Positions 13,038 through 47,530 of a DNA stretch of 47,530 nt are shown one piece after another (the stretch's first letter is position 1; every line of letters starts with the position of its first letter). Source of the DNA: Caldisericia bacterium (GTDB lineage Bacteria > Caldisericota > Caldisericia > B22-G15); NCBI GenBank assembly GCA_030018355.1, contig JASEFN010000003.1:1-47530 (forward strand), written 5' to 3'. A program made the position numbers and the translations under genes. The notes under the pieces are model-generated. The model worked only from the letters and a program-made list of their open reading frames with translations. It was not told where the DNA came from and ran no database searches.

Positions 13038-14165
13038 ATGGAATATTTAGCAGGCAAACCTAAAATTAAAATTTTAGAAGATAATAATAATTATTTAAAA
13101 GTAGTAATTGATCCACTTTATAGAGGTTATGGAATCACAATTGGAAATGCTTTAAGAAGAGTTCTCCTTTCATCTATTACAGGATATGGAGTATATGCAA
13201 TTGAAATTAAAGGAATAACTCATGAATTTACAACTATTCCATATGTATATGAAGATGTTCCTCAAATAATTTATAATATTAAACAACTTGTTTTAAAAGG
13301 AAATCTTGAAAGAGACAAACTTCACCTTCATGTTAAAGGAGAAAAAGAAGTAAAAGCAAAAGATATTGATCCAAATCCAAACATAGAAATTGTAAATCCT
13401 GATTTACACCTTTTTACTATAACTGATAAAAAGGGTGAAGTTGAGATGCTTCTTTATGTTAAAAGAGGTTTTGGATATCTACTTGATTCAGAAAATAAAG
13501 AGCCAGGATTTCCAATTGATACAATTTTTATTGATACAAATTTCTCTCCAGTAAAAAAAGTAAATTTTGAAGTTTCTTCTTCAGATGTCGCTCCCTTCCC
13601 AAAGAGAGAAAAATTAACTCTTGAAATTTGGACAAATGGAGCATTAACTCCAAGAGAATCAGTAAAGGAAGCAATAAATATTCTTAATTACTATATGGGA
13701 ATTCTTTCAGAACTTAAAGTTGAAGAGGAGAAAAAAGAGATTAGTGTTGAGTTATTGCCTTTATCAACAAAAGTAAAGAAAGTTTTAATAAGTGAAGGTA
13801 TTGAAACTTTATCACAACTTAAAAAAGAGTTTCTATCTGGTGGTCTTAAAGATTTGAAAGGTATTGGTGAAAAATATCTTTCTGAAATTGAAGATGTTTT
13901 AAAAAATTATAGTGAGGAAGCAGAAGAAGAAAGTATTTTAAATAGATCTATTGAAGAAGTTGCAACTGAACTTTCTATTTCTATGGATGATTTAAATGTT
14001 TTAAAACTTGGAGGAGTGAAAACCTTAAAAGATTTAATTAAACTTTCTCATGATGATCTTTTATCTGAAAAATTCAATTTATCTTCAAAAGTTGTAAAAA
14101 AGATTGAAAATAGATTAAAAAAATGGAATTTATCTTTAAGAAAGGAGATAAGCGATGAGGCATAA
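13038..14165 (+). CDS. rpoA: RNA polymerase alpha subunit with two C-terminal domains
   Basis: A 375-residue alpha subunit, about 45-60 longer than usual. The N-terminal assembly domain (1 to about 228) is canonical: GYGITIGNALRRVLLSSITG, NGALTPRESVKEA. Instead of one C-terminal domain there are two alpha-CTD-like helix-hairpin-helix units. Unit one (about 239-289) has K245 at the E. coli R265 position and keeps G277, K279 and E283 (equivalents of G296, K298, E302). Unit two (about 311-367) aligns over 22 residues to the R265 region and ends in the typical WNLSL, but has D317 for R265, while N320 matches N268. An acidic linker (292-299) lies between them. It overlaps rplQ by 11 nt. Confidence 0.96.
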   Translation: MEYLAGKPKIKILEDNNNYLKVVIDPLYRGYGITIGNALRRVLLSSITGYGVYAIEIKGITHEFTTIPYVYEDVPQIIYNIKQLVLKGNLERDKLHLHVKGEKEVKAKDIDPNPNIEIVNPDLHLFTITDKKGEVEMLLYVKRGFGYLLDSENKEPGFPIDTIFIDTNFSPVKKVNFEVSSSDVAPFPKREKLTLEIWTNGALTPRESVKEAINILNYYMGILSELKVEEEKKEISVELLPLSTKVKKVLISEGIETLSQLKKEFLSGGLKDLKGIGEKYLSEIEDVLKNYSEEAEEESILNRSIEEVATELSISMDDLNVLKLGGVKTLKDLIKLSHDDLLSEKFNLSSKVVKKIENRLKKWNLSLRKEISDEA

Positions 14166-14508
14166 AGTTGGTTATAGAAAGTTGAATAGATATCCATCTC
14201 ATAGAAAAATGATGTTGAGAAATTTAGTTACCTCTCTTATTTTAAAGGAAAAAATTATAACCACAGAAGCAAGAGCAAAAGAAGCAAGAAAAATTGCAGA
14301 TAAAATTATAAATCTTGCTAAAAAAGATACACTTCATGCAAAAAGACAAATTTATTCGATTCTACTTTCAAAAGAGGCAGGTAAACATTTAGAAGAGATA
14401 AAAGATAAATTTGAAGGAAGAGATGGTGGTTATACAAGAATTGTACCCTTAGGAGAAAGGAGAGGAGACGGAGCTAAATTAGTAGTACTTGAACTTGTTA
14501 AAGAGTGA
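14155..14508 (+). CDS. rplQ: 50S ribosomal protein L17
   Basis: A 117-residue L17 with RHKVGYRKLNRYPSHRKMML, NLVTSLILKEKIITTEARAK, EARKIADKIINLAKK and a C-terminal GGYTRIVPLGERRGDGA block. It lies near the tunnel exit. The ATG lies inside the rpoA end, with AAAGGAGATAAGCG as ribosome-binding site, and its stop overlaps the GTG of ecfA1 by 4 nt. Confidence 0.97.
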   Translation: MRHKVGYRKLNRYPSHRKMMLRNLVTSLILKEKIITTEARAKEARKIADKIINLAKKDTLHAKRQIYSILLSKEAGKHLEEIKDKFEGRDGGYTRIVPLGERRGDGAKLVVLELVKE

Positions 14509-45742: not shown

Positions 45743-47530
45743 TTATTCCCCAGGATAAGTAATCTTTACTACTTTAAGATTTGGATCCCAATCAACTTTA
45801 CACCCAAGATTTTCTGCAATGAATCTAACAGGAAGCATTGTCCTTCCAGAGATAATCATTGGTACTACCTTTGGATTACCTGGATCTATTTGTTTATCAA
45901 CTCCATTCACTCTTGCAATATTTTTCCCTATCCAGAGTTCAATTACAATACCTTTTAGACTAACAGTTACCTTTTTTTCTACTCCATCCCAACCAACAGT
46001 TGCACCTAATGGTTCTGCAATCCATCTTATTGGTAAAAGAGTTCTTCCTTCAACTATTAAAGGTGGTACATCTATCTCTTTTGGTTCACCGTTAATGTAC
46101 ATAATTTTGTTTCCTATTTGAAGTTTTAAAATAATCTTTTCTATTTCAATATATTTATATAAATAACCATAAAATGAACCAGCGTATATATTTTTTGAAT
46201 TATTAATATCAATGGCTAATCTTCTTATATTTAAATCAACTAAGCCTTCATTGATCGAATTCCATGAATTTCCACTATCAGTAGATTTAAAAATACCACT
46301 ATATGAACAAGCATAAATTATATTTGTATTTTGTTGATCAATTTCAATAGATAAAAAATAATTATTTTTCATTAAACCATTACCAACTTCAATCCAATTT
46401 TCTCCTCCATCAATTGATTTGAATACAGTAGTAGAGCCAGCATATAAAATATTATTATTTTTAGGATCTATTTTTATTACATAAAAATTTAAATTTGTTA
46501 ATCCATTATTTTTAGAGATCCAATTTTCACCGCCATCAATAGATTTGAAAATTCCATTTTTTGTTGCAACATATATGATATTGCTATTATTATAATCAAT
46601 TGCAATATTATAAATATATTTATCACTTAAACCATTTGTTATATCAATCCATGTGTTGCAACCATCTGTTGATTTGTATATTTTAAAAGGATTTATTGCA
46701 TATATAGTATTGCTATTTTTAGGATCGTATATTAACATGGTTATATAATTACTTAATTTTTTACTATCAACTTTAATCCAAGTTTCTCCTCCATCAATAG
46801 ATTTATGAATATAATTCCATGTTCCAACCAACAGAGTGTTATTGACAGGATCAACAGCAATTGTTTGAATTTGTTCATTATTTAAACCTTCTCTTTTTTC
46901 AAACCAATTTCTTCCTCCATCATATGATTTATAGAAACCGCTTTCTGTGCCTAAATATATAATATTGCTATCTTTTGGGTCAACTTTTATAGAATTGATT
47001 GTAGGTCCAAATATTCCTTTATTAATTTTTAACCAATTTAAACCATAATCAATTGATTTATAAACGCCACACCCTGTTGCAGCATAAATTATATTATTAT
47101 TTTCCTTATTGATACTAATTTTAAAAATATTAAAACATGATAATCCATTGATAATCTTTTTCCAATTTTCTCCACTGTCATTACTTTTATAATAACCACC
47201 ATTTGTTGCAAGGTATATAAGATTTGTATCCTTTTCATCAATAGAAATACAATTTATTTTATAACCCATTAAACCAATTGACTTATTTTCCCATTTTTCT
47301 CCTTCATCTACTGACTTATAAACATGTAAATTTGTACCGATGTAAATAATTTTCGTGTTCTTTGGATCAATTGCAATAGTATTAATTATCAGATCTGTAA
47401 GACCAGAATTTTTTTCTTGCCAACTTTCTCCTCCATCAATAGACTTAAAAATTCCATTATCAGTTGCAACATAGATTAAATTACTATTTGTGGGGCTAAT
47501 TTTAATATCATTTATATTTAAATTAGTCAA
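45743..47530 (-). CDS. Beta-propeller repeat protein with two stalk domains (5' end outside window)
   Basis: The last 595 residues of a gene whose start lies beyond the window. Residues 1 to about 467 are eleven repeats of about 43 residues with the pattern I-x-I-D-P-x-N-x-N-x-I-Y followed by G-x-[FY]-K-S-x-D-G-G-x-x-W (BNR/sortilin-like beta-propeller blades). Residues about 468-595 are two copper-amine-oxidase N-terminal-like stalk domains, each with V-x-G-R-T-x-L-P-[IV]-R-[FW]-I-A-E. Such proteins are usually exported and bind surfaces or glycans. The leading TTG at the window edge lies mid-repeat and is not the true start. Function unknown. Confidence 0.8.
   Translation of the reverse strand: MTNLNINDIKISPTNSNLIYVATDNGIFKSIDGGESWQEKNSGLTDLIINTIAIDPKNTKIIYIGTNLHVYKSVDEGEKWENKSIGLMGYKINCISIDEKDTNLIYLATNGGYYKSNDSGENWKKIINGLSCFNIFKISINKENNNIIYAATGCGVYKSIDYGLNWLKINKGIFGPTINSIKVDPKDSNIIYLGTESGFYKSYDGGRNWFEKREGLNNEQIQTIAVDPVNNTLLVGTWNYIHKSIDGGETWIKVDSKKLSNYITMLIYDPKNSNTIYAINPFKIYKSTDGCNTWIDITNGLSDKYIYNIAIDYNNSNIIYVATKNGIFKSIDGGENWISKNNGLTNLNFYVIKIDPKNNNILYAGSTTVFKSIDGGENWIEVGNGLMKNNYFLSIEIDQQNTNIIYACSYSGIFKSTDSGNSWNSINEGLVDLNIRRLAIDINNSKNIYAGSFYGYLYKYIEIEKIILKLQIGNKIMYINGEPKEIDVPPLIVEGRTLLPIRWIAEPLGATVGWDGVEKKVTVSLKGIVIELWIGKNIARVNGVDKQIDPGNPKVVPMIISGRTMLPVRFIAENLGCKVDWDPNLKVVKITYPGE
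45817..46143 (-). repeat. Two tandem stalk (Cu-amine-oxidase N-like) domain repeats
   Basis: Two copies of the segment ending GRTLLPIRWIAEPLG and GRTMLPVRFIAENLG, about 70 residues apart, at the C-terminus of the propeller protein. Each is followed by a V-x-W-D strand (VGWD, VDWD). They are protein-level repeats; the DNA copies have diverged. Confidence 0.7.
46144..47530 (-). repeat. Eleven propeller-blade repeats of about 129 bp
   Basis: Repeats coding for about 43 residues each, with most copies keeping KS-x-DGG-x-x-W. Some are atypical: copy 4 has DYG, copy 7 has DGC and copy 11 ends in a different strand. They are not identical in DNA, so they are not recent duplications. The series continues past the window end. 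Confidence 0.75.

Follow-up and report, generated by a model that had tools for sequence, protein, structure and literature searches.

The window, a stretch of 47,530 nucleotides from a Caldisericia bacterium (phylum Caldisericota), carries an rpoA gene in the operon order S13-S11-S4-rpoA-L17 as read from the list of open reading frames (Table 1). Its product is a housekeeping alpha subunit of RNA polymerase bearing tandem C-terminal domains (alpha-CTDs). Bacterial RNA polymerase senses upstream signals in large part through the alpha-CTD, of which the textbook layout has one per alpha. The identity of the protein was established with TIGR02027 (257.9 bits against a cut-off of 227.8) and NF003519 (292.9 bits, above cut-off). 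By both models, and by PF01000 and PF01193, which score above their cut-offs and cover the Rpb3/Rpb11-like dimerisation and insert domains of the alpha N-terminal domain (NTD), the N-terminal part is ordinary. Gene order and copy number agree with this assignment, as both TIGR02027 matches of the window genome fall in one frame, making it the sole RpoA. With two alphas per enzyme and two CTDs on each, four CTDs on flexible tethers are expected per polymerase.

Elsewhere in the window, a large frame on the reverse strand (45743-47530, -) consists of beta-propeller-like 'KSxDGGxxW' repeats and runs to the window end, and sequence inspection found apparent copper-amine-oxidase-N-like repeats at its C-terminus.

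Table 1. Features of the rpoA region, in window coordinates
Feature	Position	Strand	Basis
rpoA, RNA polymerase alpha, 375 aa, two C-terminal domains	13038..14165	+	TIGR02027, NF003519, ORF list
alpha NTD (assembly/dimerisation), residues ~9-222	13062..13703	+	PF01000 residues 55-170, PF01193 residues 26-217, PDB alpha chains
CTD1, inner alpha-CTD, residues ~236-290	13743..13907	+	PF03118, hhalign, AF2 helices, residue table
Acidic linker CTD1-CTD2, short, residues ~290-303	13905..13946	+	sequence; low pLDDT in model
CTD2, outer divergent alpha-CTD, residues ~303-370	13944..14147	+	PF03118, hhalign, AF2, Foldseek
rplQ (L17)	14155..14508	+	start overlaps rpoA end by 11 bases

Two separate alpha-CTDs in the window RpoA

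PF03118 (RNA_pol_A_CTD) matches the window RpoA twice: residues 228-289 score 27.3 bits and residues 293-361 score 24.3 bits, against a curated cut-off of 23.8 bits. In a phmmer search against the PDB, the alignment to Thermus RpoA runs through the inner copy, CTD1 (query 12-289), and residues 292-368 align separately with the lone CTD of 8i23 (i-E 1.3e-4). Both copies from the family of the window genome, f1, were aligned by hhalign with canonical CTDs, at P=95.6 and E=1.3e-8 for CTD1 and at P=93 and E=3e-7 for the outer copy, CTD2. AlphaFold2 (AF2) modelled residues 223-375 as two helical domains with a low-confidence stretch between them; on an alignment of 11 sequences the pLDDT was only ~75 for CTD1, whose helix order is that of an alpha-CTD, and ~90 for CTD2. 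The top PDB matches of the modelled tail in Foldseek were RpoA/alpha-CTD chains, with a TM score (target) of at most 0.83, a value given for the tail without specifying whether CTD1 or CTD2 was aligned. By profile and by fold, the inner and the outer copy are each an alpha-CTD.

The sequence-only reading, which had recognised two helix-hairpin-helix (HhH) units in the 375-residue protein, is therefore borne out by Pfam, the PDB alignments, hhalign and AF2 alike. The acidic linker that it placed between the units is present, but short (NYSEEAEEESILNR). That the second unit is some other HhH domain, or that the pair makes up one larger domain, is scarcely credible: the Pfam scores are barely above the cut-off and weak SAM/HhH matches also occur, but all the methods above point to the alpha-CTD, and in families f5 and f6 the two copies lie far apart on a long linker. 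The structure prediction proposed as a check yielded two domains joined by a low-confidence linker, which ruled out a single larger HhH domain. An assembly or frame artefact was also considered and ruled out by the five genomes sharing the layout and by their low dN/dS.

Canonical RpoA of E. coli, B. subtilis and Thermus is the product of the orthologous gene and agrees with the window protein in NTD, operon context and alpha-CTD fold. It differs in having one CTD, whereas the window RpoA has two, the outer of which lacks R265, G296 and S299 and bears small insertions. Diversified alphas within one enzyme are also represented by the alpha 1 + alpha 2 pair (PDB 6wmp), in which two genes take the place of two CTDs per chain.

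DNA-contact residues and selection on the two copies

DNA binding by E. coli alpha depends critically on R265 and N268 (PMC11434276), and a review lists R265, N294 and K298 as DNA contacts of the alpha-CTD (PMC5101437). The contact set was scored here at the E. coli positions R265, N268, G296, K298 and S299, which in the window correspond to K245, K248, G277, K279 and Y280 of CTD1 and to D317, N320, S349, K351 and V352 of CTD2, the outer copy lacking the full five-residue set. The residues named from the sequence alone (K245, G277, K279, E283, D317, S349 and V352) are all correctly numbered. The alignment of CTD2 with the R265 region, described as free of gaps, is so at R265 itself, but helix 1 is immediately preceded by an insertion of 2-3 residues and the hairpin by one of a single residue. 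Similarly, CTD2 is divergent at D317, S349 and V352 as claimed, but it is not bare of contacts, with K351 at the K298 position and N320 at that of N268.

Among the relatives, the inner copies of f5, f6 and the sister genus G004 carry the complete R, N, G, K, S set, and the inner copy of G001 reads R, K, G, K, Y. All tabulated single CTDs (E. coli, f2, f3, f7 and outgroups) have R265 and G296. In the outer copies, R265, G296 and S299 are absent from all ten sampled across four families, and K298 is present in all ten, so the loss of the R265 determinant from the second CTD holds well beyond the window genome. Position 265 of the outer copies is occupied by D or E in f1 (three copies tabulated), by S, K, P or G in f5 and f6 and by A or T in f4; position 296 is S, T or P, and position 299 is N, V, T or R. 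In f4, which has three CTDs, none of them carries the full set. As for charge, CTD1 of the window has a net charge of -2 (pI 5.1) and CTD2 one of +3 (pI 9.3); CTD2 is at +3/+4 in the window genus, and the outer copies of f5 range from -5 to +2.

The double-CTD RpoA occurs in all five genomes of f1 (G000-G004, G000 being the window genome), and the full double-CTD protein is also present in the nearest named records, a Caldisericota MAG at 74% identity and an unclassified bacterial MAG at 73%. In two species pairs, dN/dS was 0.045 and 0.034 for CTD1, 0.08 and 0.17 for CTD2, and 0.055 and 0.09 for the alpha NTD; judged by these ratios, purifying selection acts on both CTDs. A degenerating, functionless spare copy is accordingly a very improbable description of CTD2, even if CTD2 has diverged further than single CTDs have and the single-CTD families manage without an outer copy, because its ratios are low in both pairs and the outer copy has been retained across four families with conserved positions in common.

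Distribution and history of the copies

The number of CTDs varies within the class, with one in f2 and f3, two in f1, f5 and f6, and three in f4; f7, from the other class of the phylum sampled, has one. A long linker joins the two CTDs of f5 and f6, and in f4 a long acidic linker follows the first CTD, the second and third being adjacent. AF2 of one f4 tail returned three helical regions and a disordered linker, for which Foldseek again found alpha-CTDs. In addition to the three-CTD RpoA, f4 genomes encode a separate fusion (L083, L084 and L085 in G011, G015 and G007), frames of 277-301 residues in which an alpha-CTD is followed by a sigma region 4-like HTH (LQEIADxMxLTRERVRQLQ). Most f2 CTDs have diverged beyond the reach of Pfam but match a CTD profile built in this analysis, the seed of which includes three f2 copies. 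The single alpha-CTD of f2 (L071-L075, L078-L082, L097-L101) is a few residues shorter and mostly below Pfam detection; the tabulated copies are acidic, yet R265 and G296 are present.

In total, 389 genomes were surveyed with PF03118, ~360 of them outside the phylum, and RpoA frame lengths were examined for ~340. Frame length was used as the screen because Pfam misses divergent second CTDs, PF03118 having missed the f5 outer copies, and the long RpoA frames that were retrieved were read individually. Outside the phylum, one genome with a tandem-CTD RpoA was found among the ~340, namely G337, with 511 residues and three CTDs. A second three-CTD genome, G419, belongs to the same genus (RpoA of 510-511 aa; L087/L125, L167), and two other families of this neighbouring phylum have one CTD. 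The remaining long frames were discarded as multi-CTD cases after reading showed upstream read-through or low-complexity tails. The rarity of the layout is a sample estimate, from a count that omits ~15 genomes and a handful of frames 376-386 residues long. The two comparisons recommended by the sequence-only reading gave these outcomes: among the ~340 genomes of other phyla the tandem layout is rare, with the three-CTD RpoA of a neighbouring phylum as the one further case, and the duplication is common to four families of the class. A literature search, mostly of open papers, for tandem or duplicated alpha-CTDs in RpoA and for Caldisericota RNA polymerase found no description, and the layout may be listed somewhere. 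The case is that of a familiar subunit in which a familiar domain occurs in unusual number, one copy having diverged consistently.

The RpoA of G337 and G419 likewise has several CTDs, which resemble CTD1 of f1 (hhalign P=98, E=1.4e-13), but unlike those of the window they are three mutually alike copies without the outer-copy insertions. In the tree of ribosomal proteins G337 is placed beside the class (96/97), and its three-CTD RpoA, shared with G419, is probably an independent expansion. Two alpha-CTDs in a row, as in the window RpoA, are also found in TPR-like proteins of G300, G176 and G411 (L088, L089, L090), which differ in lacking the RpoA NTD and are distinct from the RpoA of those genomes; their alpha-CTDs carry 'LSVRSRxC'-type (R265-like) motifs.

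CTD1 and CTD2 of f1 match each other poorly in hhalign (P 18-38), whereas CTD2 aligns with the outer CTDs of f5/f6 at P=98.1 and E=9e-14 and that of f4 at P=95.8 and E=8e-9, on which ground the duplication is considered old. A 2-3-residue insertion before helix 1 is common to the outer copies of f1, f4, f5 and f6, and those of f1, f5 and f6 have one more residue before the hairpin, where the aligner places the gaps of f4 differently. The outer copies form one clade in the CTD domain tree (62 columns), weakly (54/75), so the case for their orthology is built on the insertions and hhalign. From these, the outermost copy is apparently orthologous across the four multi-CTD families.

A tree of the RpoA N-domain alone left the order of the families unresolved, and 27 ribosomal-operon proteins (4160 columns, mixture model) were used instead. 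This tree placed f1 outside (f2,f3)+(f4,(f5,f6)) with 98/96 support, and grouping the four multi-CTD families as a clade was rejected (p-AU 0.007). Together with a single origin of the outer copy, this rejection implies a loss in f2+f3. The tandem pair was thus probably present in the class ancestor, one copy being lost in the f2+f3 ancestor and a third gained in f4; two gains, or a transfer, in place of an ancestral pair and a loss would be a less simple course.

A proposed division of labour between the copies

A split in which the inner copy serves DNA and the outer copy protein, as suggested at first from the window alone, fits the conservation pattern and is partly supported by it. The inner CTD would retain the classical job, a weak minor-groove contact upstream of -35, and in the window this contact may be relaxed via R265K/N268K/S299Y. 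The outer CTD, presumably freed from DNA binding with selection still acting, may serve as a tethered module on which an activator, sigma region 4 or some other factor docks. This role is likened to that of the Thermus thermophilus alpha-CTD, which in TAP-RNA polymerase tethers the activator TAP without touching DNA (PMC5101437) and so provides a precedent for an alpha-CTD without DNA contact. Thermus thermophilus has a single CTD, whereas here an extra copy would play this part, beside an inner CTD that retains DNA-contact residues in relatives.

For the reading as a whole, a tandem-CTD alpha with the inner CTD contacting DNA, the outer docking protein and the pair ancestral to the class, the chances are evenly balanced. 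Several results weigh against it. No binding partner for the outer CTD came to light; a search for CRP/FNR-type HTH proteins in the window genome, G003 and G004 detected none, so an obvious class-I activator partner is lacking, and its results showed no evident relation to the number of CTDs. In the window it is CTD2 that is basic and CTD1 that is acidic, and CTD2 keeps the K298 and N268 equivalents. The incomplete contact sets of all f4 CTDs and the weak outer clade in the domain tree count on the same side.

The basic charge of CTD2 in the window genus and the two retained contacts would equally suit an enzyme in which both CTDs bind DNA, giving a multivalent grip on a longer upstream region through altered CTD2 contacts, and in G003 an A-tract precedes the -35 element of the 16S promoter (80% A+T against a 76% A+T background). 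Binding of DNA by both copies is nevertheless improbable, as the three tabulated f1 outer copies all carry D or E at position 265 and none of the ten sampled has R there, the G296 position is S, T or P, and the basic charge is not conserved in f5. The 16S promoters were compared in one genome per family: that of G003 (L158) is a perfect TTGACA-16-TATAAT, and that of an f3 relative (L156) is also perfect, with an upstream stretch that is not AT-rich. Alternatively, CTD2 might be in constitutive contact with sigma region 4 or a NusA-like factor, and so belong to the structural machinery of initiation or elongation instead of being an activator target. The 258-261 region, the sigma contact in E. 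coli, is remodelled, with P at E261 in CTD1 and an insertion in CTD2, and the lack of a detected CRP/FNR-type activator agrees with such a role; no sequence feature singles out sigma or NusA, however, and this alternative is doubtful.

Returning to the divided roles of inner and outer copies, a broader proposal can be advanced tentatively: in one class, the number of CTDs ranges from one to three per alpha, which makes four or six for each polymerase of several families, the outermost copy would be a conserved protein-contact module without DNA contact, and f4 may have dropped the contact between alpha-CTD and DNA in all three copies. If true, this would be a core enzyme with divided labour among its CTDs. 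The class offers a natural set of one-, two- and three-CTD enzymes, in which one copy retains the contacts and another has lost them, so that the two known functions of the domain, minor-groove binding and activator docking, may be separable experimentally.
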